Source: Alistipes senegalensis
GTDB taxonomy: Bacteria; Pseudomonadota; Gammaproteobacteria; Burkholderiales; Burkholderiaceae_D
Direction: 5' to 3'
Assembly: GCA_023664945.1 (NCBI GenBank)
Contig: JAMPER010000001.1
Span: 1 to 64,000, forward strand
DNA length: 64,000 bases
A model generated the notes under the pieces. The model saw only the letters and a program-made list of their open reading frames with translations. It did no database searches and was not told where the DNA came from. A program made the position numbers and the translations under genes. Below are positions 6,922 to 21,922 of this stretch, one piece after another. The stretch's first letter is position 1, and each line of letters opens with the position of its first letter.

Positions 6922-7947
6922 ATGTTCAGCTTCTTTCGAAAAAAAACCGAAACACCCGCCGGCAAAGAAGGCGAAACCGGCATTGACATACCTGAAACAT
7001 CTGCGCCAGATACTGCCACAAGCGGCACAGCAAGCCAAGAACCTCCCGCAAAAAACCGTTCATGGTTTGAACGGCTCAAAGACGGGCTGGCAAAAACCTC
7101 GGCAAACCTCAACATTTTCGGTACCGCCATGCTGGATGAAGACCTGTATGACGAACTGGAAATGGCGCTGTTGACATCAGATGCGGGAATAGAAGCAACA
7201 GAACAACTCCTTTACGACCTGCGGGAAAAAGCCGGCCGGGAACACCTGACAAAACCGGAAGAAATCCGGCAAGCCCTGCAATCGCTGCTGGCAGACATGC
7301 TGAAACCGCTTGAAAAACAAATGGAGATCGGCAGGCGCCACCCGCTCGTCATGATGATTGCCGGTGTCAACGGCGCAGGGAAAACCACCACCATCGGCAA
7401 ACTGGCCTGCCACCTCCAGGCACATGGGCAAACCGTGCTCCTGGCAGCAGGGGATACCTTCCGCGCAGCCGCCCGCGAGCAACTTGCCGTCTGGGGAGAC
7501 CGCAACCGCATTACCGTCATCTCCCAGGAATCCGGTGATCCGGCAGCCGTCGCCTTTGATGCCGTCCAGTCAGCCAAAGCCAAAAACATTGATGTTGTCA
7601 TGGTCGATACCGCCGGACGCCTTCCGACACAACTGCACCTGATGGAAGAACTGAAAAAAATACAGCGCGTTATTGGCAAAGGAGAACCAGCCGCACCGCA
7701 CGAAGTCCTGCTCGTCATTGACGGCAACACCGGACAGAACGCCCTGGCGCAGGTCAAAGCCTTTGACGATGCCCTTGGGCTGACCGGGCTGATCGTCACC
7801 AAACTGGACGGCACAGCAAAAGGCGGCATTTTGGCGGCCATCGCCAAAATTCGTCCCATCCCCGTTTATTTCATCGGCATAGGCGAAAAAATTGAAGACC
7901 TTCAGCCATTTTCCGCCGGGGAATTTGCACAAGCCCTGCTGGGTTGA
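6922..7947 (+). CDS. ftsY: Signal recognition particle receptor FtsY
   Basis: The frame is open from a TTG at 6862, but the conserved start MFSFFRKK begins at ATG 6922, giving 341 residues. An acidic, low-complexity A region (about 10-55) is followed by the N domain and the G domain. The G domain has GVNGAGKT (148-155), DTFRAAAREQL, DTAGR and TKLDGTAKGG. FtsY is the membrane-associated GTPase that docks SRP-ribosome complexes at the SecYEG translocon. Six bases separate it from ftsE, so ftsY-ftsE-ftsX form one operon as in many proteobacteria. Confidence 0.97.
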   Translation: MFSFFRKKTETPAGKEGETGIDIPETSAPDTATSGTASQEPPAKNRSWFERLKDGLAKTSANLNIFGTAMLDEDLYDELEMALLTSDAGIEATEQLLYDLREKAGREHLTKPEEIRQALQSLLADMLKPLEKQMEIGRRHPLVMMIAGVNGAGKTTTIGKLACHLQAHGQTVLLAAGDTFRAAAREQLAVWGDRNRITVISQESGDPAAVAFDAVQSAKAKNIDVVMVDTAGRLPTQLHLMEELKKIQRVIGKGEPAAPHEVLLVIDGNTGQNALAQVKAFDDALGLTGLIVTKLDGTAKGGILAAIAKIRPIPVYFIGIGEKIEDLQPFSAGEFAQALLG

Positions 7948-7953
7948 GCCGCC

Positions 7954-8652
7954 ATGTCAGCCATGATTGAATTTTTCGATGTTTCCCGCTTCTATCCGGG
8001 CGACATCACCGCCGTCAGAAACATCACCTTCTCCATCCAGCCTGGAGAAATGGTCTTTCTGACCGGCCCCTCCGGCGCAGGCAAATCCACCCTGCTTAAA
8101 ATGATCGCCGCCATCGAAAAACCGGATGAAGGCAGCCTGATCGTCAACGGGCAGGATATCGGCAGCCTGAAACCGGCCGGCATCGCTTCCCTGCGCCAGA
8201 ACCTGGGCCTGGTTCTCCAGCAGCAGGGACTCTTGCCTGACAGAACCCTGCTGGATAACGTCATGCTGCCACTGATCGTTACCGGCGCCTCCCGCTCGGA
8301 AGCAGAAGCGCGCGCCAGCGCGGCGCTGGACAAAGTCGATCTGCTCGACCGTGCCCACTTCCTTCCCCAAACCCTTTCCGGCGGGGAACAACAGCGCGTT
8401 GCCGTAGCGCGCGCCATTGTCAACAAACCCAAAATTATCCTGGCAGATGAACCCACCACCAACCTGGACAGAATCAGCGCTGCCAAAGTCATTGACGCCC
8501 TCCGTTTCTTCCAGTCTGCCGGAGTAACCTGCATCATCGCCACCCACGATGGCCAGCTTCTTGAACGGGCCAGCCGGGTAATTCGCCTGGAAAAAGGACG
8601 GCTGTCACCGCTCGGGCCATCTTCCACACCGCTTCGCACAAGTACACCATGA
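7954..8652 (+). CDS. ftsE: Cell-division ABC ATPase FtsE
   Basis: The 232-residue ABC ATPase has Walker A GPSGAGKST (38-46), signature LSGGEQQRVAVARA and Walker B IILADEPTTNLD. FtsE pairs with FtsX at the division septum and controls periplasmic amidase activation rather than transporting a solute. The ATG at 7954 lies six bases after ftsY. Its stop overlaps the ftsX start (ATGA), which indicates translational coupling. The C-terminal tail of about 15 residues is Ser/Pro-rich and probably unconserved. Confidence 0.97.
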   Translation: MSAMIEFFDVSRFYPGDITAVRNITFSIQPGEMVFLTGPSGAGKSTLLKMIAAIEKPDEGSLIVNGQDIGSLKPAGIASLRQNLGLVLQQQGLLPDRTLLDNVMLPLIVTGASRSEAEARASAALDKVDLLDRAHFLPQTLSGGEQQRVAVARAIVNKPKIILADEPTTNLDRISAAKVIDALRFFQSAGVTCIIATHDGQLLERASRVIRLEKGRLSPLGPSSTPLRTSTP

Positions 8653-9578
8653 GCAACTGGCTTCGACAACATTTTTTTGCCATTGGCGACGCCTTTTCAC
8701 AACTGCGGCGCGCCCCCGGCAATTATTTTTTCAACATCCTTGTCCTTTCCCTCACACTGGCCCTGCCTTTCGCCGGCGTTACCCTGCTGGAAAACCTTAA
8801 GACACTCACCAACCGGATGGCAGTAGAACCGGAAATCAGCCTGTTCCTGAACAAATCCGCCTCCCGGGAAGAAGCCACCGGACTGGAAAAACGCATCAGC
8901 CTCATTCTTTATTCCGATGAACACAGCCACGACATCGTCTTCATTCCCAAAGAAAAAGCCTTAAGCGCCCTGCAAAAAAAAGAAGGCATAACCGATATCG
9001 TCAAAACACTCGGGAAAAACCCGCTTCCTGACAGCTATCTTATCCGCATCGCGGGCAACAATGGCGATCCGCGCTTCGCCAGGCATATTGAAAATATCGC
9101 AAAACAACTCGAAAAACTCCCTCATGTCCAGAAAGTACAAATAGATTCAGACTGGATCAGGCGGCTGGCCGCCCTCGTCAGAGTCGTGCGGCTATGCATC
9201 TTCTTTCTTGGGGCCACACTGGGCATCGTCGTCATTGCCGTCATCTTCAATACCATCCGCCTCCAGGTACTGACCCGAACAGAAGAAATCACGCTAATCC
9301 GTACCGTCGGCGCAACCCGCGCCTACATACGGCGCCCCTTCTACTACACCGGCATCCTGCTTGGCCTTTTTTCCGGCATCGTAGCGCTTGGCATTGTCAT
9401 CCTCTCCCTTCACCCCCTAAACAACGTCATTGCCGACCTGGCCCGCCTTTACGCCTCCAGCCTCCAACTCTCGCCTCCCGAACCGCTTGTCGCCCTTTAC
9501 CTCTTATTATCCAGCGCAGCACTGGGCTGGATCGGCGCACTGTTCTCCGTCAACCGCCATCTGGATCGCATAAACTGA
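8649..9578 (+). CDS. ftsX: Cell-division permease-like protein FtsX
   Basis: The 309-residue protein has the FtsX layout: an N-terminal transmembrane helix (about 27-47), a periplasmic loop of roughly 120 residues, then three helices near residues 178-205, 230-255 and 275-300. The TRTEEITLIRTVGATRAYIRRPF region between helices is conserved in the family. FtsX is the membrane partner of FtsE and transmits ATPase state to periplasmic cell-wall hydrolase activators. Its start overlaps ftsE by four bases. rpoH follows after 200 bases with its own promoter. Confidence 0.95.
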   Translation: MSNWLRQHFFAIGDAFSQLRRAPGNYFFNILVLSLTLALPFAGVTLLENLKTLTNRMAVEPEISLFLNKSASREEATGLEKRISLILYSDEHSHDIVFIPKEKALSALQKKEGITDIVKTLGKNPLPDSYLIRIAGNNGDPRFARHIENIAKQLEKLPHVQKVQIDSDWIRRLAALVRVVRLCIFFLGATLGIVVIAVIFNTIRLQVLTRTEEITLIRTVGATRAYIRRPFYYTGILLGLFSGIVALGIVILSLHPLNNVIADLARLYASSLQLSPPEPLVALYLLLSSAALGWIGALFSVNRHLDRIN

Positions 9579-9699
9579 TCCCATCCATTGGCAACCGTCG
9601 CCTGCCTTTTTCCATCCCACTTGCTTGCGCCGCCGCAACACTCGCCGCCACAAACAGAATTAAGCTGTCAGCCTGCCTGGTTACGCCGGGGAAGCCTTG

Positions 9700-9726
9700 T
9701 TAGCACTCCTTGTCAAAGAGTGCTAA
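9700..9726. promoter_or_regulatory. CIRCE operator (HrcA binding site) upstream of rpoH
   Basis: TTAGCACTC (9700-9708), a nine-base spacer and GAGTGCTAA (9718-9726) form an exact match to the CIRCE consensus, with perfect nine-base arms. HrcA, encoded at 20873-21922, is the known CIRCE repressor. The operator begins 79 bases upstream of the rpoH start codon and covers the putative promoter, so repression by occlusion is expected. Confidence 0.95.
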
Positions 9727-9729
9727 AAT
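9700..9729 (+). promoter_or_regulatory. Putative rpoH promoter, overlapped by CIRCE
   Basis: TAAAAT at 9724-9729 is preceded by TGC, giving an extended -10 element. TTAGCA at 9700-9705 (four of six matches to -35) lies 18 bases upstream. Both hexamers share bases with the CIRCE arms. The transcription start would be near 9736, leaving a leader of about 43 bases that contains the strong AAGGAGG SD at 9768-9774. This is inference from motif matching only. Confidence 0.5.
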
Positions 9730-9778
9730 AACACTGTCAGAAAAAATGACCGGTTTCATAAAAATTGAAGGAGGAAAC

Positions 9779-10678
9779 ATGACTGTAACGTCCGCGCCAT
9801 CGGCCTTGATGCTGGCGAACCAGCATTCCCTGGTTCCTGCCTTCACCGGCGCACTGGGCAACATCGAAGCCTATATAGCCGAAGTCAACAGGCTTCCCAT
9901 GCTTTCCTGCGAACAGGAAACCGCGCTGGCAAAACGTTATCGCGAACATGACGACCTTGCGGCAGCGCAAGCCCTGGTACTGTCGCATCTCAGGCTTGTC
10001 GCCTCCATCGCCAGAGGCTATCTTGGCTACGGCCTGCCCCACGCAGACCTCATACAGGAAGGCAATATCGGCCTGATGAAAGCCGTCAAACGCTTTGACC
10101 CGGAAATGGGCGTACGCCTGGTTTCCTATGCCATTCACTGGATCAAGGCAGAAATCCATGAATATATCCTTCGCAACTGGCGTATGGTCAAAGTTGCCAC
10201 CACCAAAGCGCAGCGCAAGCTTTTCTTCAACCTGCGCAGCCATCGTAACGGCAGCGAAACCATGAGCGAAGAACAAATTGACTCCCTCGCGCAAAAACTG
10301 AATGTCAGAAGAGAAGAAGTGCTGGAAATGGAAACCCGCATGAATGGCCGGGATATCGCGCTGGAACCCTCCTCCGACAATGATGATGAAAATTTTGCCC
10401 CCATTGCTTACCTCTCCTCGGAAGACAACGAACCGATGAAGCAGCTTGAGGCTCAACAGGCCGAGCGTCTCCAGTCTGAAGGACTCAAAGAAGCCTTAAA
10501 CAAACTGGACCCGCGTTCCCGCCGCATCATTGAGGCCCGCTGGCTCGCGGGTGAAAATGAAGCCGGTGCCACCCTGCATGCCCTCGCAGAAGAATTTGGC
10601 GTCTCCGCCGAGCGGATACGCCAGATTGAAACAGCTGCCATGAAAAAAATGAAAACAGCACTGGTTGCCTACCAATAA
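9779..10678 (+). CDS. rpoH: RNA polymerase heat-shock sigma factor RpoH (sigma-32)
   Basis: The frame is open from a TTG at 9710, inside the CIRCE element. The true start is the ATG at 9779, preceded by AAGGAGG, giving 299 residues. Region 2 includes the conserved LIQEGNIGLMKAVKRFDP, and the RpoH box QRKLFFNLRS, which distinguishes sigma-32 from other sigma-70 members, is intact. Region 4 ends with the helix-turn-helix FGVSAERIRQIE. RpoH directs RNA polymerase to heat-shock promoters. Two such promoters occur at grpE and dnaK in this window. An exact CIRCE element lies on its promoter, implying HrcA repression. Confidence 0.97.
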   Translation: MTVTSAPSALMLANQHSLVPAFTGALGNIEAYIAEVNRLPMLSCEQETALAKRYREHDDLAAAQALVLSHLRLVASIARGYLGYGLPHADLIQEGNIGLMKAVKRFDPEMGVRLVSYAIHWIKAEIHEYILRNWRMVKVATTKAQRKLFFNLRSHRNGSETMSEEQIDSLAQKLNVRREEVLEMETRMNGRDIALEPSSDNDDENFAPIAYLSSEDNEPMKQLEAQQAERLQSEGLKEALNKLDPRSRRIIEARWLAGENEAGATLHALAEEFGVSAERIRQIETAAMKKMKTALVAYQ

Positions 10679-10695
10679 GCCAGATAACAAAGGGA

Positions 10696-10734
10696 ACAGT
10701 AAAATAAGGCCGTTTTTTTGCCGAAAATTACTGT
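10696..10734. repeat. Inverted repeat between rpoH and the recombinase gene
   Basis: ACAGTAA at 10696-10702 and TTACTGT at 10728-10734 are perfect seven-base inverted arms around 25 bases containing a run of seven T. The right arm ends four bases before the recombinase ATG. It could be an operator, a transcript stem or chance. The T run lies inside the loop, so it is not a standard terminator. Confidence 0.35.
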
Positions 10735-10737
10735 AGT

Positions 10738-11742
10738 ATGAATGCATCTGCAACCTGTTCCCTTCCCTTTTCCTGCTTTCAACAACTAGCCGGCCAGTTC
10801 CTGCACGTATCCGAATTCAAGCCCACCACCGCCAGGACCTACCGGTCGACATTCTCATCTTTCTTCAGCTGGCTCTCCACAACAGGAGATCCCCTGCCAG
10901 CAAAAGAACATATCATCCTCTGGAAAGCCTTTCTCGGAAAAAACCGCTCTTTGGCAACCATCCAGACCTACCTGGCCGCCATCCGGCTATTCTTCAAATG
11001 GACAGAACAACAGGGCATCTATCCCGATATTACCCTGTCCATAAAAGGCATCCGGGTTGGCCGCTTTCCCCGAAAAGACTTCCTGACACCGAAACAAGTC
11101 CTCTCGCTTCTTGACAAAGCTACCCAGGGAAAAACCGCCCTGCGTGACTATGCCCTGATTTTGCTGATGGTCACCTGCGGCCTGCGCGTATCAGAAGCCG
11201 CCAAGGCAAACATAGGCGACTTGCGGCATATCGGCGGAAAACCCGTCCTGTATATCTACGGAAAAGGCCGGGATGGCAAAACAGAATCCGTAAACGTACC
11301 GGGGAAAGCCGTTTCGGCCATTACCCGCTACCTGGCCACAAGACCAGCGCTAACGCCCCATTCCCCCTTATTTGCATCGGCAGGACGAAATAACCCGGGA
11401 GGCCATCTCTCGGCACGCTCAATCAGCCGTATCATCAAAACCCTGTTACTGTCCTGCGGCATCAATAACAGCCAGTTAACCGCGCACTCCCTGCGCCATA
11501 CCGCTGTTACCCTGTCCCTCAAAGCAGGCGCAACCCTGCAACAAGTCCAGCAATTCGCCCGGCACAGCCTGATTATCACCACCCAGATTTATGCGCATAA
11601 CCTCGACCGGCTGCGCAATCCCTGCTCAAACAAAATCTCCCGCTTTCTTTTCCAGGAAAACCGGATACATCAGGAAAAAGACACTTCCCCCGGCATAATC
11701 AACACTGTCCCGCACCCGGCCCTGGCTTTCCCCCTGTGCTGA
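10738..11742 (+). CDS. Tyrosine recombinase (XerC/D-like integrase)
   Basis: The 334-residue protein has an N-terminal SAM-like core-binding domain (about 12-100) and a complete catalytic set: R150 (CGLRVSEAA), K176 (YGKGRDGK), H250 and R253 (HSLRH), H276 and Y285 (IYAHN). It should be an active site-specific recombinase. After the nucleophile there are about 50 further residues, longer than XerC or XerD (about 300 in all). It has no SD and starts 59 bases after rpoH. It is not flanked by phage genes or obvious attachment sites, so it may be a resident Xer-like enzyme rather than a mobile integrase. Its target is unknown. Confidence 0.9.
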   Translation: MNASATCSLPFSCFQQLAGQFLHVSEFKPTTARTYRSTFSSFFSWLSTTGDPLPAKEHIILWKAFLGKNRSLATIQTYLAAIRLFFKWTEQQGIYPDITLSIKGIRVGRFPRKDFLTPKQVLSLLDKATQGKTALRDYALILLMVTCGLRVSEAAKANIGDLRHIGGKPVLYIYGKGRDGKTESVNVPGKAVSAITRYLATRPALTPHSPLFASAGRNNPGGHLSARSISRIIKTLLLSCGINNSQLTAHSLRHTAVTLSLKAGATLQQVQQFARHSLIITTQIYAHNLDRLRNPCSNKISRFLFQENRIHQEKDTSPGIINTVPHPALAFPLC

Positions 11743-11745
11743 TAA

Positions 11746-12618
11746 CTACCGTCCCGGATAAAAATGAACCGGCCGTTCAATCCCGGCTTCTGCCTGCGTC
11801 ACCGAACAGAAAGCATGACCGTAAATAACCTCATAAGGCATCCGTATCAGTCCCTCTTCATCCCGGCCGCTTTCCAGTGCATCCATCAGTTGCCCATAAG
11901 CCTGCCTGCCCATCAAGGCACGCGGACGATTAACCAACACATTACCTCCAAACGCACGTACATCCGACAAGCACTTTTTAACAGAGGAATATGTCACCAC
12001 CATTTCTTCCCTGTCCAGCACCGGTGAAGGAAAACCGGCATCCACCAGCGCATCACCCAAGTCATGCATCTCCATAAAAGGCAGGATATGCCCATAGCCG
12101 TCCACCTGGCAGAAAGCCTCGCGCAGCGGAGAAAGTGTCCCCGGCCCAAAACAGGAAAACAGAAGCATTCCGTCAGCATCCAGCACGGCCTTCCATGCGG
12201 AAAACACCTGAAAAGGCGAAGAATGCCAATGCAAAGCCAGATTGGACCACACCATGCCAAAACTGCCCGGCAAAAAAGGCAGCGCGGCAAAATCAGCGCA
12301 TACCGGGCTTGCCGGCACACATCCGGCATCTGCAAGCCCGGCCTGCAACATCCCCTCGGAAGCATCCAGCGCCACAACCTCTGCCCCGGGAAAACGCCCC
12401 TTTAACCGCGCCCAGTCAGCGCCCTCCCCGCACCCGGCATCCAGAAGACGCCTCGGGTCAAGGCGAATCCCGGCAAGCCGCTCGTGCATCCGGGCCGCCA
12501 CCTCCCGGCGCAAAAAAGCCGAACCGGCAAGCCGCGATGGCACAGCAAAGCGTTTTCTTACAGCAAAAAGATCAATACTTTCTGCTGCCTCATCAGGCAG
12601 CCCATAAAAACAAGACAT
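11746..12618 (-). CDS. BioC-like malonyl-ACP methyltransferase
   Basis: A class I SAM-dependent methyltransferase with motif I LLDAGCGEGADW, an acidic motif II (VVALDAS) and the post-motif WSNLALHW that resembles BioC. BioC methylates malonyl-ACP at the start of pimeloyl (biotin) synthesis. No other biotin gene is nearby, so the substrate is inferred. The frame is open from a GTG at 12690, only eight bases from the divergent comF start. I prefer the ATG at 12618 (290 residues), which leaves about 80 bases for divergent promoters. The 3' end lies three bases from the convergent recombinase gene. Confidence 0.78.
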   Translation of the reverse strand: MSCFYGLPDEAAESIDLFAVRKRFAVPSRLAGSAFLRREVAARMHERLAGIRLDPRRLLDAGCGEGADWARLKGRFPGAEVVALDASEGMLQAGLADAGCVPASPVCADFAALPFLPGSFGMVWSNLALHWHSSPFQVFSAWKAVLDADGMLLFSCFGPGTLSPLREAFCQVDGYGHILPFMEMHDLGDALVDAGFPSPVLDREEMVVTYSSVKKCLSDVRAFGGNVLVNRPRALMGRQAYGQLMDALESGRDEEGLIRMPYEVIYGHAFCSVTQAEAGIERPVHFYPGR

Positions 12619-12698
12619 GAAATCCGGAAAAGAGAATGCGATAATACGGCCTGCCCTGAACAACAGCTCAGCAAACAGTTCAAGCCGCACCCTTTGAC

Positions 12699-13433
12699 AT
12701 GCTGCACATGCTCCGCGAAAAAACCTCCTGGTTAACCGGCATACTGCCCGCCTTGCCGCACTTTTGCGCGCTTTGCGCCCAGGTCAGCCCGCAAAGCCTG
12801 TGCCCAGCCTGTCTTGACCGTTATTTTACCCGCTTCACCCCGCGCTGCCGGATATGCGCTGAAAAACTGCCCGAAAAACAACCTGATCCGCTGTGTGGAG
12901 CCTGCCTGAAAAATCCGCCATCCTTTGACCGTATCATTACCGCAGCAGATTATGAACCGCCCGTTGACCAGCTTGTCCAGTCACTCAAGTTCGGTGGCAA
13001 ACTGGCTTTGGCCCCGCTCTTTGCCAACCTCATCGCACAGGCTGTCCTCCAGGCAGAAAACCTGCCGCTGCCGGACATCATTGCCCCTGTTCCCCTGGCA
13101 GCCCAAAGACTTTCGGAACGGGGATTCAACCAGTCGCTTGAAATCGCCCGGCGCCTTTCACAGCAACTGCACATCCCGCTGATTCCAACACTTGTCAGCC
13201 GAACCCGCGAAACCGCTCCCCAATCCCTTACCGCCATGGCCGAACGGCGCAAAAACATCCGGCAGGCCTTTGCCGTTGGCGCACCTTTTCGCTCCCGCCT
13301 AAACGGCCGTCATATCGCTATCGTTGATGATGTCCTCACCACCGGCCACACCATGGGCGAAATCGCCCGCATACTCAAACAGGCAGGCGCAGAAACCGTC
13401 AGCGGATTCATTTTTGCACGAACCCCTCTTTAA
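12699..13433 (+). CDS. comF: ComF family phosphoribosyltransferase-like protein
   Basis: The 244-residue protein has the N-terminal zinc-ribbon cysteines of ComF/GntX proteins (CALC, CPAC, CRIC and CGAC, residues about 23-70). The C-terminal type I phosphoribosyltransferase fold has the PRPP loop VDDVLTTGHT. The family is linked to DNA uptake in competent bacteria and to use of DNA as nutrient, but the reaction is not established. It is followed after 15 bases by trmL, probably in one transcript. Confidence 0.93.
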   Translation: MLHMLREKTSWLTGILPALPHFCALCAQVSPQSLCPACLDRYFTRFTPRCRICAEKLPEKQPDPLCGACLKNPPSFDRIITAADYEPPVDQLVQSLKFGGKLALAPLFANLIAQAVLQAENLPLPDIIAPVPLAAQRLSERGFNQSLEIARRLSQQLHIPLIPTLVSRTRETAPQSLTAMAERRKNIRQAFAVGAPFRSRLNGRHIAIVDDVLTTGHTMGEIARILKQAGAETVSGFIFARTPL

Positions 13434-13448
13434 ACAGCAAGGAAAACC

Positions 13449-13925
13449 ATGTTCCACGTTGTACTGGTCGAACCGGAAATCCCGCCCAACACCGGCAACA
13501 TCATCCGCCTTTGCGCCAACACCGGCGCACAGCTCCATTTAATCGAGCCATTGGGCTTTCCCCTTGACGATGCCAAAATGCGCCGGGCAGGACTGGACTA
13601 TCACGAATTCGCCACCATAAAAGTCTATCGGAACTGGGCAGACTTTCTCGGCCAAAACCAGCCCGATCCCGGCAGAATATTTGCACTGACCACCCGCGGC
13701 ACAACCTGTTTTGCCGACACCGCTTTCAAACCGGGCGACTTCTTTGTTTTCGGTTCGGAAACCAAAGGGCTGGCAGCCAGCCTGCGAGAAAGCTTTCCAC
13801 CGGCTCAGCGCCTGTACCTGCCCATGCGCCCCAACAACCGCAGTCTGAACCTTTCCAACACCGTCGCCATCGTCGTTTACGAAGCCTGGCGGCAAAACAA
13901 CTTCAAAGATAGCGTTTTAAAATAA
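13449..13925 (+). CDS. trmL: tRNA (cytidine/uridine34-2'-O)-methyltransferase
   Basis: The 158-residue SPOUT methyltransferase has the family motifs PEIPPNTGNIIRLCANTG near the start, FGSETKGL in the middle, and LPMRPNNRSLNLSNTVAIVVYE near the end, which forms the knotted SAM site. TrmL methylates the wobble ribose of certain leucine tRNAs. The length is typical. AAGGAAAACC precedes the ATG, and the gene lies 15 bases after comF. It is convergent with dnaJ. Confidence 0.96.
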   Translation: MFHVVLVEPEIPPNTGNIIRLCANTGAQLHLIEPLGFPLDDAKMRRAGLDYHEFATIKVYRNWADFLGQNQPDPGRIFALTTRGTTCFADTAFKPGDFFVFGSETKGLAASLRESFPPAQRLYLPMRPNNRSLNLSNTVAIVVYEAWRQNNFKDSVLK

Positions 13926-13926
13926 A

Positions 13927-13952
13927 AACCGGCCGGATACCACCGGCCGGTT
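13927..13952 (-). terminator. Rho-independent terminator of dnaK-dnaJ
   Basis: Perfect ten-base arms (AACCGGCCGG / CCGGCCGGTT) enclose a six-base loop. On the minus strand the stem is followed by a T-rich tract (TTTATTTT), as expected for termination of dnaJ transcripts, which end 20 bases earlier. On the plus strand only an A-run follows, so it would be weaker for trmL. Confidence 0.85.
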
Positions 13953-13972
13953 GAACAAAAAAAACGTCGGGA

Positions 13973-15109
13973 CTAGCCGTTAAAAAAATCCCGGACCCGC
14001 TGGCCCCACGACTTATCCTGCGGCGTATGCTTTTCGCCGCCTTCTGTCACCAGCTTGTCAAACTCTTTCAACAATTCCTTCTGCCGGTCTGTCAGCTTCA
14101 CCGGCGTCTCAAGCGTCACATGGCAAAAGAGATCGCCTGGTTTTCCGGTCCGCACACCACGGATACCCTTGCCGCGCAAACGGAAAATCTTGCCTGTCTG
14201 CGTGCCTTCCGGAACAGGGAAAGAAACCTTGCCATCCAGCGTCGGCACTTCAATATCGCCGCCCAAAGCCGCACGGGCAAACGAAACCGGCACCTCACAA
14301 TGCAAATCGTCCCCTTCCCGCTGGAAAACCGGATGCGGCCTGATGCGGATTTCCACATACAAATCCCCCGGCGGACCGCCGTTCGCGCCCGGTTCCCCGT
14401 TCCCCGACGAGCGGATACGCATCCCGTCGTCAATCCCGGCCGGAATCTTCACCTCCAGCGTCTTGTTATGCTTGACTCGTCCTACGCCATGGCACTTGGT
14501 ACAGGGATCCTTAATCGTCTTGCCCATCCCGTTACAGGTCGGGCACGTCTGCTGGATACTGAAAAAGCCCTGCTGCATACGAACCTGCCCCGTACCCTCG
14601 CAAGTCTTGCAAGTCTCCGGCGAAGTTCCCGGCTTCGCACCGGAACCCTTGCAAGTATCGCACTCATCCCATGACGGAACGCGAATCACCTTGTCCGAAC
14701 CGGCAGCGGCCTCTTCCAGCGTAATATCCAGGTTATAACGCAAATCCGCGCCCCGGTACATCTGCGGCCCGCCGCCCCGCGGCCCTCTTCCCGTCCCGAA
14801 AATATCACCGAAAATATCGCCAAAGGCATCGGCAAAACCGCCTGCCCCCGCGCCCCTGAAACCGCCGCCCATATTCATATTGGGATCCACACCGGCATGA
14901 CCAAACCGGTCATAGGCCGCGCGTTTTTCCTCATCGGAGAGCATCTCGTAGGCTTCTTTCACCTCCTTGAACTTGCTCTCTGCAGTCTTGCTGTCGGGGT
15001 TTCGGTCAGGGTGATACTTCATCGCCAGCTTGCGATAAGCCTTCTTGATCTCCTCTTCCGATGCGTTTTTGGGTACGCCCAATACTTCGTAAAAATCCCG
15101 CTTTGCCAT
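13973..15109 (-). CDS. dnaJ: Chaperone protein DnaJ (Hsp40)
   Basis: The 378-residue type I DnaJ has a J domain with the HPD motif (YHPDRNPD, about 32-39) and a G/F-rich linker (about 75-115). Four zinc-finger repeats follow ([32 protein letters not shown]), then the substrate-binding C-terminal domains. It delivers unfolded clients to DnaK and stimulates its ATPase. It lies 167 bases after dnaK on the same strand and is probably co-transcribed from the dnaK sigma-32 promoter. A strong terminator follows. Confidence 0.98.
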
Positions 15110-15276: not shown

Positions 15277-17235
15277 CTATTCGCCTTTGCCTTCCTTGCC
15301 TGCGTCCTTCACTTCCTTGAACTCGGCATCAACCACATCCGCCTCCTGGGGCTGCTCCCCGGCTGCGCCGCCGGCAGCCTGGCCTGCCGCACCGGCTTGC
15401 TGCTGGGCCTGCATATCCGCATACATCTTTTCACCCAGCTTTTGCGCCGCCGTGGACAACGCCGCAACCTTGGCATCAATGGCCGCCTTGTCATTTTCAC
15501 GCAAAACCGCCTCCAGCTCGCCAAGCGCCTTCTCAATCGCTTCCTTGTCGGCAGCCTCCAGCTTGTCGCCATATTCCGTCATGGATTTGCGGGTCGAGTG
15601 CAGCAAGGCATCCCCCTGGTTGCGCGCATCAGCCAGCTCACGCATCTTCTGGTCTTCAGCCGCATTGAGCTCGGCATCCTTGACCATACGCTGGATCTCT
15701 TCCTCCGTCAGGCCGGAATTCGCCTTGATAGTAATCTTGTTTTCCTTGCCGGTAGCCTTGTCCTTTGCGCTCACATTCAAAATACCGTTGGCGTCAATAT
15801 CAAAAGTTACCTCAATTTGCGGCATCCCGCGGGGAGCTGCCGGAATTCCCTCAAGATTGAACTCGCCAAGCGCCTTGTTGCCAACCGCCATTTCGCGCTC
15901 GCCCTGATACACCTTGATCGTCACCGCCGGCTGGTTATCCTCGGCCGTCGAAAACACCTGGCTGAACTTGGTCGGGATCGTCGTGTTTTTCTTGATCATC
16001 TTGGTCATCACACCGCCAAGCGTCTCAATCCCCAAAGACAGCGGCGTCACGTCCAGGAGCAGCAAATCGGTACGGTCGCCAGACAACACCGACCCCTGCA
16101 AGGCCGCACCAACCGCAACTGCCTCGTCCGGATTCACATCCTTTCTCGGATCCTTGCCGAAAAACTCCTTCACCTTCTCCTGCACCTTCGGCATCCGCGT
16201 CATGCCGCCCACCAGGATAACATCGCTGATATCACCGGCTTTTACCCCTGCATCCTGCAAGGCAATCCGGCAGGGTTCAATCGTACGGTCAATCAGGTCT
16301 TCCACCAGCGCTTCCAGCTTCGCGCGCGAAATCCGCACATTCAGGTGAAGCGGCGTGCCATTGTTCATGGCAATATAAGGCTCGTTCACCTCTGTCTGCT
16401 GTGCGGAAGAAAGCTCAATCTTGGCACGTTCGGCAGAAGCCTTGATCCGCTGAAGCGCAATCGGATCATTCTTCAGGTCAATGCCATTTTGCTTGTTGAA
16501 CTCTTCCAGAATAAAGTTAATCAGCCGCTGGTCAAAATCCTCCCCGCCCAGGAACGTATCCCCGTTGGTAGAAAGCACCTCAAACTGCTTGTCGCCATCC
16601 ACATCCGCAATCTCGATAATCGAAATATCGAATGTGCCGCCACCCAGGTCATACACAGCTATCTTGCGGTCACCCTTGCCAGCCTTGTCCAGGCCAAAAG
16701 CCAGCGCGGCTGCCGTCGGTTCATTGATAATCCGCTTGACATCCAGCCCGGCAATCCGGCCGGCATCCTTGGTTGCCTGACGCTGCGAATCATTGAAATA
16801 GGCCGGAACCGTAATCACCGCTTCCGTCACCTCCTCGCCCAGATAATCCTCGGCCGTCTTTTTCATCTTGCGCAGCACTTCTGCCGATACCTGCTGGGGA
16901 GCCAGCCGCTTGTTATCCAGCACCGAAACCCAGGCATCGCCATTATCAGCCTTCACAATCGAAAACGGCATCCGGCCGATATCCTTCTGCACTTCCTTCT
17001 CGTCAAAACGGCGGCCAATCAGGCGCTTGATGGCAAAAAGCGTATTTTTCGGATTGGTCACCGCCTGCCGCTTGGCAGCCGCGCCAACCAGCGTCTCGCC
17101 ATCTTCCTGGTAGGCAATAATAGATGGCGTCGTACGCGCACCTTCCACATTCTCGATAACCCGGGACTGCCCGCCCTCAATAACCGATACGCAGGAGTTC
17201 GTCGTACCCAGATCAATGCCGATAATTTTTCCCAT
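15277..17235 (-). CDS. dnaK: Chaperone protein DnaK (Hsp70)
   Basis: This is a 652-residue Hsp70. The frame extends to a TTG at 17250, but the ATG at 17235 begins the conserved [15 protein letters not shown] and follows GAAAGGAAG. The nucleotide-binding domain shows [21 protein letters not shown] and [10 protein letters not shown]. The substrate-binding domain and helical lid follow, and the C-terminal tail is Gly/Ala/Gln-rich, ending in acidic residues with a final EGKGE rather than the E. coli-type ending. DnaK folds and protects proteins with DnaJ and GrpE. A sigma-32-type promoter lies 107 bases upstream, overlapping the grpE stop. Confidence 0.98.
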
Positions 17236-17341: not shown

Positions 17342-17369
17342 ATATGGCGTCGTTTTTTTCGGTTTCAAG
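17342..17369 (-). promoter_or_regulatory. Sigma-32 promoter of dnaK
   Basis: On the minus strand CTTGAAA (17369-17363) is followed after 13 bases by CGCCATAT (17349-17342). This matches the sigma-32 consensus CTTGAAA-N13/14-CCCCATnT at all but one defined position. The -35 element overlaps the grpE stop codon, so dnaK has its own heat-shock promoter besides read-through from grpE. Confidence 0.85.
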
Positions 17370-17925
17370 ATCCTTTTGAAGCCGCCACCGTCACCACAGC
17401 CGGCCTAAGCAGGCGGTCTGCCAGGGTATACCCCTTTTGCAGCACCTCCACCACTGTATTGGGATCCTGTTCCGAAGGCACCGTTGAAATAGCCTGATGT
17501 TTCATCGGATCCAGCTTTTCCCCTTTTTCGGGAACCACCGCCACCAGCCGGTTTTGCTCAAACACCTGTGTCAGCTGGCGCAAGGTCGCTTCCACCCCCT
17601 CACGGATAGATTCCACCGTCGGCACATCCACCGTCAGGCTCATCTCCAGGCTGTCCTTGACAGCCAGCATGGACTGGGCAAACCCCTCCACAGCAAACTT
17701 GTGAGCCTTGGCGACATCCTCCTGGGCGCGGCGGCGGACATTTTCCATTTCCGCCCTGGCCCGCAAAAACGCATCCTGCATTTCAGCCGCCTTCTGCTCG
17801 GCCTGCGCCAGCCTTGCCTCAACAGACAATGCCTCCTTTTCCCCCTCAGATGAAACAACCTCCTCTTCAAGAGCAGCCTCCTGCTCCACAGCAGATGACG
17901 CCTTCTCTTCCTTGTCGTCCTGCAC
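17365..17925 (-). CDS. grpE: Nucleotide exchange factor GrpE
   Basis: The 186-residue protein has an acidic, disordered N-terminus and a long coiled-coil helix (about 35-90, rich in A, E and Q). A compact C-terminal beta domain contains [20 protein letters not shown] and [20 protein letters not shown], which is diagnostic. GrpE exchanges nucleotide on DnaK. The start is GTG at 17925, supported by GGAGGAA five bases upstream. A sigma-32 promoter lies 36-63 bases before the start. The stop codon overlaps the dnaK promoter. Confidence 0.97.
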
Positions 17926-17960: not shown

Positions 17961-17988
17961 AGCTGGGGACAAATCCCGGCTTTTCAAG
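17961..17988 (-). promoter_or_regulatory. Sigma-32 promoter of grpE
   Basis: On the minus strand CTTGAAA (17988-17982) is followed after 13 bases by CCCCAGCT (17968-17961). All seven -35 positions and six of seven defined -10 positions match the sigma-32 consensus. It lies between recN and grpE, so grpE is driven independently of recN. Confidence 0.85.
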
Positions 17989-20872: not shown

Positions 20873-21922
20873 ATGCAACTTGAACCCCGCGCCAGAATCC
20901 TCCTGAAAACGCTGGTAGAACAATACATCGCCGAAGGCCAGCCGGTAGGGTCGCGCTCGCTGTCAAAACTCTCAAGCCTTGAACTGTCCCCGGCGACCAT
21001 CCGCAACGTCATGGCCGACCTGGAAGAAATGGGATTCGTCTCCAGCCCCCACACCTCGGCCGGGCGGGTGCCGACCCCCAAGGGATTCCGCCTTTTTGTC
21101 GATACCCTGCTCACCGTGCAGCCCGTCAGCGAAACGGCGGTAGCATCCGATATCCACAACAGCCTTCAGAAAGCCCCGCCCGGCAAAATCATTGCCAATG
21201 CGGCACAAATGCTCTCAGCCCTTTCCCAGTGCGCAGGCGTTGTGCTGGCGCCGCGGCACGAACTGGCCTTTCGCCAGCTGGAATTCATCCGGTTGTCTGA
21301 AAAACGCATCCTTTTGGTCATCGTCTCGCCGACAGGCGATATCCAGAACCGCCTCATACTGACCGAAACCGATTACACCCCCTCCCAGCTGACCGAAGCG
21401 GCCAATTACATCAACCGCCATTACAGCGGCCTGCAAATGGATGAAATCCGCTCGCGGCTGCAAGCCGAACTGCGGCAACTGCACAACGACCTGTCCAAAC
21501 TGATGGCAACCGCCATTGAAGCCAGCAGCGAAGCCCTTTCGGAAGACAACGAACATATCGTCATCTCCGGCGAAAAAAACCTGCTTGGCATCTCCGGCCT
21601 GACCTACGATATCGCCTCGCTCAGGCGGCTGTTCGACCTCTTTGAGCAAAAAACCGAAATCATGAAACTGCTGGACGTCTCCAGCAAAGCCACCGGCATC
21701 CAAATCTATATCGGCGGCGATTCCCAGCTTGTTCCCATGGAAGAAATGAGCGTTGTCACCGCGCCCTACCAGGTTAACGGCAACATCGTCGGCACCTTGG
21801 GCGTCATCGGCCCCACCAGGATGGCATACCAGCGCGTCATTCCCATTGTGGATATCACCGCACGCCTCTTGTCCAGCGCATTAAGCCACCCGGAATCCCC
21901 TGTCAGGCACGATACCGATTAA
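20873..21922 (+). CDS. hrcA: Heat-inducible transcription repressor HrcA
   Basis: Starting at ATG 20873 the protein has 349 residues, the family's usual size. The N-terminal winged-helix ([24 protein letters not shown]) is followed by the DNA-contact motif [17 protein letters not shown] and by [11 protein letters not shown], typical of HrcA. A C-terminal GAF-like region includes the family ending [24 protein letters not shown]. HrcA is the CIRCE-binding repressor, needing GroEL for folding. The only CIRCE in this window is at rpoH. There is no SD and the promoter sits right before the ATG. The last 20 bases overlap the convergent pyrF. Confidence 0.96.

Follow-up and report, generated by a model that had tools for sequence, protein, structure and literature searches.

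A CIRCE operator overlapping a putative sigma-70 promoter of rpoH, and its association with hrcA among related genomes

The textbook account of sigma-32 control derives from Escherichia coli, where that control is exerted largely after transcription. The activity of the repressor HrcA depends on GroESL, as known from Bacillus subtilis. For Geobacter sulfurreducens, a CIRCE operator upstream of rpoH has been published (Rodionov et al. 2004, PMC545781, Table 8), and that paper also gives the consensus TTAGCACTC-N9-GAGTGCTAA. A different input to rpoH is described for Bordetella bronchiseptica, where SigE drives in vitro transcription from the rpoH (fam) promoter (PMC3490749); neither HrcA nor CIRCE is mentioned in the main text of that report. 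The locus presented here lies in a window of 64,000 nucleotides, the whole stretch of DNA that was analyzed, and is compared with rpoH loci from close relatives, from the class, and from other classes of the phylum.

The rpoH locus and its operator

Positions 9779–10678 of the forward strand hold rpoH, which encodes the heat-shock sigma factor sigma-32. The gene starts with an ATG at 9779, and its product scores 410 bits against the RpoH equivalog profile TIGR02392, above the cut-off of 323.1. Upstream lie ftsX (8649–9578; FtsX_ECD and FtsX domains) and, before it, genes that match an ABC-transporter ATPase (7954–8652) and an SRP54-type GTPase (with its end at 7947), which we take from gene order to be ftsE and ftsY. 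Directly after rpoH stands a tyrosine recombinase gene (10738–11742, forward strand; Phage_integrase domain, 92.5 bits).

The gap between ftsX and rpoH is 200 bp long and contains a CIRCE operator at 9700–9726 (motif scan, no strand assigned), 52 bp from the rpoH start. The operator is an exact 9-9-9 inverted repeat, TTAGCACTC CTTGTCAAA GAGTGCTAA, with zero mismatches to the consensus. A scan allowing up to three mismatches returns no other match in the window (mean of 0.01 over 100 shuffles) and two sites in the entire genome, the second standing before groES-groEL (genes read from open reading frames). The same whole-genome scan finds no CIRCE before hrcA, dnaJ, dnaK, or grpE. Many class members carry three or four CIRCE sites per genome, compared with two here. 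The repressor expected at the operator is encoded in the same genome by hrcA (20873–21922, forward strand; TIGR00331, 317 bits, cut-off 197.2), the start codon of which is uncertain, with 20828 as the alternative.

Judged by sequence alone, the operator overlaps a heat-shock promoter. Within 9500–9850, a single sigma-70-like site was found, TTAGCA-N18-TAAAAT with TG, at 9700–9729 (shuffle mean 0.1). Measured against an extended −10 (TGNTANNNT) with a −35 at a distance of 16–18 bases, the site has nine of 12 hexamer matches, a spacer of 18, and the TG. Its −35-like hexamer, TTAGCA (9700–9705, forward strand), lies within the left CIRCE arm and is a weak match (4/6). The extended −10 (9721–9729, forward strand; found by the scan and conserved in relatives) consists of TG (9721–9722), C, and TAAAAT (9724–9729), and the right arm ends with the first three bases of this hexamer. 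From the −10, transcription is predicted to start at approximately 9735–9737 (forward strand), and the rpoH Shine-Dalgarno sequence AGGAGG, read from the sequence, is at 9769–9774 on the same strand. An earlier note on this DNA had claimed a mismatch-free CIRCE before rpoH and an extended −10 overlapping it; the former is confirmed, and the latter is present as sequence.

Conservation around the operator was assessed in 128 distinct, oriented rpoH sites from relatives. Position 30 of the site, in the −10 hexamer, is T in 128/128, with A at its mirror position on the opposite flank in 17/128. This constancy supports the use of the hexamer. The complete extended −10, TGC-TAnnnT, is likewise present in all 128. 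In 98 oriented rpoH sites of class members other than the relatives, T30 occurs in 87, the extended −10 in 86, and the mirror A in 18. The third base of the left arm is altered in 26/128 relatives' sites and 31/98 other class sites, and its mirror in the right arm in 0/128 and 2/98, respectively. Such one-sided changes would be as expected if the left arm drifts to TTGGCA, which is nearer to TTGACA, with the right arm fixed at TA. The control set of 32 CIRCE sites at groESL, this genome's among them, has A at position 30 in 81%, and its left arm directly follows conserved bases that include TA at −4/−3.

Distribution of the operator and of hrcA

The relatives sample comprised 60 genomes, own included, of which 58 contain a CIRCE anywhere, 55 an rpoH match, and 58 hrcA. 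A CIRCE with at most three mismatches lies upstream of 53 of the 55 rpoH genes (30 of 30 loci and 23 of 25 others). Among further rpoH loci, taken as the best 80 of 590, the site is present in 78; the two misses are not judgeable, as these loci end at a contig edge (L080 has 51 bases upstream of the match and L097 has 3). The relatives sample overlaps these 80 loci, and L032 and L125 share the same site. In four of the 30 relatives' loci (L122, L130, L139, and L140), the distance from CIRCE to the extrapolated start is negative, down to −19, which is put down to shorter N-termini. Of the two relatives that lack a site at this threshold, G043 has one with four mismatches and G053 has none. The latter genome, of the same order and rated 100% complete, contains rpoH, and searches there for hrcA, CIRCE, and RpoE-family members gave no match; it is possible that the whole HrcA/CIRCE/RpoE layer has been lost naturally.

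The class sample comprised 149 genomes, own included and mostly one per family, with rpoH in 139 and hrcA in 111; class, order, and phylum are used here as the kinship labels assigned to the sampled genomes. The 139 rpoH upstream stretches compared come from 138 genomes, with G000 left out and G089 contributing two copies. A CIRCE with at most three mismatches precedes 95 of the 104 rpoH genes in genomes with detected hrcA versus four of the 35 in genomes without (Fisher p ~1e-18, kinship ignored), and 49 of the 104 are letter-perfect. None of 1640 shuffled stretches reached three mismatches; these shuffles, like those for the sigma-E-register, sigma-32, and relatives' box scans below, kept base composition only. 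The comparison gives good support to the earlier proposal that HrcA may control rpoH. The same note had regarded rpoH as a departure from the usual CIRCE targets; with 95 of 104 hrcA-bearing class rpoH genes carrying the site, the placement is not unusual here.

Exceptions occur in both directions. Nine of the 104 rpoH genes lack the site despite hrcA, one being the second copy in G089, whose other copy has it. Four of the 35 have the site in genomes without detected hrcA, a count to be read in the light that profile searches can miss genes in incomplete genomes; for G073, with a site and no detected hrcA, a gap is likely, since G207 of the same genus has hrcA. Compared by hand, 35 of 37 class genomes without CIRCE at two mismatches also lack detected hrcA (exceptions G142 and G176), 18 class genomes being counted as hrcA-less as the complement of those with a match. 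An additional class draw gave the site in 0/15 loci without hrcA (12 new genomes and three repeats of the class sample) and in 4/4 loci with hrcA, all repeats. E. coli, the control of the class profile search, gave no hrcA match. Two arrangements seen in individual class members are a tandem pair of CIRCE-like palindromes upstream of rpoH in G067 (L257), an exact one closely preceded by another that appears near-exact and ends a few bases upstream of it, and a CIRCE before hrcA itself in G129 (L357).

In hrcA-bearing genomes from other classes of the phylum, CIRCE with at most three mismatches precedes rpoH in 2/30 (L413 and L415), a set that represents 30 of 43 such genomes, 20 of them hand-picked, with one rpoH copy each where several genomes have more. 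Also in other classes, L412 has a four-mismatch CIRCE before rpoH, and L411 covers only 448 bases. Given 2/30, the wiring is chiefly a feature of this class and does not simply follow from having HrcA. Because most HrcA-bearing relatives share the arrangement, it looks like real, old wiring that is not peculiar to one genome.

A putative HrcA–sigma-32 circuit and its alternatives

HrcA very probably shuts off sigma-70 transcription of rpoH and co-controls groESL with sigma-32; binding, repression, and the transcription start are what we infer from the data above. The element at 9700–9729 would serve rpoH in two ways at once, as HrcA operator and as the core of the sigma-70 promoter. At ordinary temperature, GroESL would keep HrcA active, and the repressor would occupy the palindrome and exclude sigma-70 polymerase, because the left arm doubles as the −35 region and the right arm contributes the extended −10. 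Once GroESL is filled with unfolded proteins, HrcA would lose its activity, rpoH would be transcribed, and sigma-32 would rise. Raised sigma-32 would turn on dnaK and grpE, and also groESL, jointly with the departure of HrcA from the second CIRCE. Newly made GroESL would then render HrcA active again.

The other heat-shock genes are arranged in keeping with such a circuit. Profile matches place dnaJ (13973–15109), dnaK (15277–17235), and grpE (17365–17925) on the reverse strand. Scored against what we take to be the sigma-32 consensus (CTTGAAA-N11-15-CCCCATAT), promoter-like sites stand just upstream of the groESL CIRCE (CTTGAAA-N13-CCCCTATA) and, on the reverse strand with no CIRCE, before dnaK (CTTGAAA-N13-CGCCATAT, 17342–17369) and grpE (CTTGAAA-N13-CCCCAGCT, 17961–17988). 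Their scores are 13, 14, and 13, and only these three were used, because shuffles yield 11.7 matches per strand at a score of 11. No sigma-32-type site scoring at least 11 was found before rpoH (forward strand, 7000–14600), and sigma-32 autoregulation of rpoH in the window was rejected on these grounds; none was seen before hrcA in the same motif scan. Since groESL has both a CIRCE and a sigma-32-type site, HrcA would act on it directly and via rpoH. In the likely circuit, HrcA blocks rpoH and groESL, sigma-32 drives groESL, dnaK, and grpE, and GroESL feeds back on HrcA. The two-tier cascade of the earlier note is too simple a picture of this wiring, given the direct action on groESL that HrcA would have.

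HrcA may be one of several controls, because control of sigma-32 is largely post-transcriptional in E. coli and the stretch QRKLFFNLR, which we recognize as a region-C-like motif of sigma-32, is intact in this RpoH. It is possible, if rather doubtful, that HrcA binds the site while rpoH output is set mainly by mRNA translation and by chaperone/protease control of sigma-32, leaving CIRCE as a minor trim. Besides the intact motif, the start of the rpoH mRNA (9735–10010), considered as a possible RNA thermometer, would suit such control, as it folds somewhat better than shuffles (z −1.98; 9/200 as good) and its minimum-energy structure pairs the Shine-Dalgarno stretch. Against this reading, the operator is strongly kept across the class, and the rpoH 5′ leaders vary in length and sequence among genus members.

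Alignment of the class sites on CIRCE brings out another signal in fixed phase, with GGAACTT from −15 to −9 and T-N-A from 10 to 12. The combination, GGAACTT-N16-TCTNA, is a sigma-E-type promoter by the consensus that we assumed (GGAACTT-N16-TCNNA), with its −10 within the left CIRCE arm and spacer. Among the 98 class sites outside the relatives, GGAACTT with at least 5/7 matches stands at −15 in 54 (null 1.3 per register) and at −16, −15, or −14 in 65, and 33 have none near this register; in 49, the box at −15 is accompanied by A at position 12 of the site. At the groESL CIRCE control sites, the box is found in 1/32. In the Bordetella locus L062, GAACTT and TCGAA abut CIRCE. Relatives carry a box of at least 6/7 in any of 28 registers at 49 of 128 distinct sites (null 4.5) and none at 79; the commonest registers are −30 (12), −27 (9), and −15 (8), with only 10 of the 49 within one base of −15. 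A box in register −30 or −27 would place the start inside CIRCE.

In the window, no sigma-E-type −35 box of at least 5/7 is found in 9571–9785. A loose GGAAGCC-N16-TCAAA at 9690–9717, noticed by eye, has a −35 of only 4/7 and was rejected as chance. It is therefore improbable that a sigma-E promoter also feeds rpoH in this genome under the same CIRCE, even though rpoE is encoded in the genome, the box is phased in 65 of the 98 class sites, and B. bronchiseptica SigE uses the rpoH (fam) promoter in vitro (PMC3490749). For the class as a whole, which includes the Burkholderiales, the chances appear evenly balanced that members keeping HrcA use the 27-base rpoH element as HrcA operator, sigma-70 core promoter, and often sigma-E −10, with one repressor gating both inputs. 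This state would be ancestral and the HrcA-free control of E. coli derived; the window would represent a branch in which the sigma-E part was lost and the operator was retained together with the sigma-70 promoter.

A further reading takes the palindrome for an RNA hairpin or terminator in the ftsX–rpoH gap instead of a DNA operator. It is an inverted repeat within those 200 bp, but this reading is exceedingly improbable and was rejected: a promoter/terminator scan of 9500–9850 found no terminator-like site, conservation extends to the sequence itself and not only to its pairing (49/104 sites letter-perfect in class genomes with hrcA), the two arms mostly vary at different positions, and absence of the site tracks absence of hrcA.

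Comparison with known systems

Should HrcA act on rpoH in most class members that encode it, the load on GroESL, sensed via HrcA, would set the supply of sigma-32 beside translation and proteolysis. The two heat-shock systems, HrcA and sigma-32, would then form a single feed-forward circuit and, where the sigma-E box is present, one repressor might gate housekeeping and envelope-stress input to sigma-32. The fixed geometry predicts which bases serve HrcA, sigma-70, and sigma-E. Permina and Gelfand (2003) reportedly treated, to judge by the title, the HrcA/CIRCE regulons of beta-, gamma-, and epsilon-proteobacteria and could well include rpoH among the targets of HrcA; both rpoH-CIRCE in betaproteobacteria and the composite geometry may have been published before.

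The groESL CIRCE of the same genomes is the same operator and presumably binds the same repressor. At groESL, the left arm marks the end of a promoter-like stretch (of sigma-32 type by eye in relatives), whereas at rpoH the arms themselves are the promoter. A box similar to that of sigma-E-dependent rpoH promoters, namely E. coli rpoH P3 and Bordetella fam (PMC3490749), is found in many CIRCE-bearing class members; E. coli gave no hrcA match, and the rpoH of the window has CIRCE and no sigma-E box.

Within the accessible part of the open-access literature on HrcA and rpoH, CIRCE on rpoH was found only for G. sulfurreducens (PMC545781). As here, the rpoH site of that delta-proteobacterium has exact CIRCE arms, at −51 from the rpoH start, and groESL also carries CIRCE. 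Unlike here, CIRCE is also present on hrcA-grpE-dnaKJ, and an overlap with the rpoH promoter, as seen in the window, is not described in the accessible part of PMC545781. CIRCE on rpoH is already known as a kind; what is added here is its spread in the class and the geometry of the promoter.
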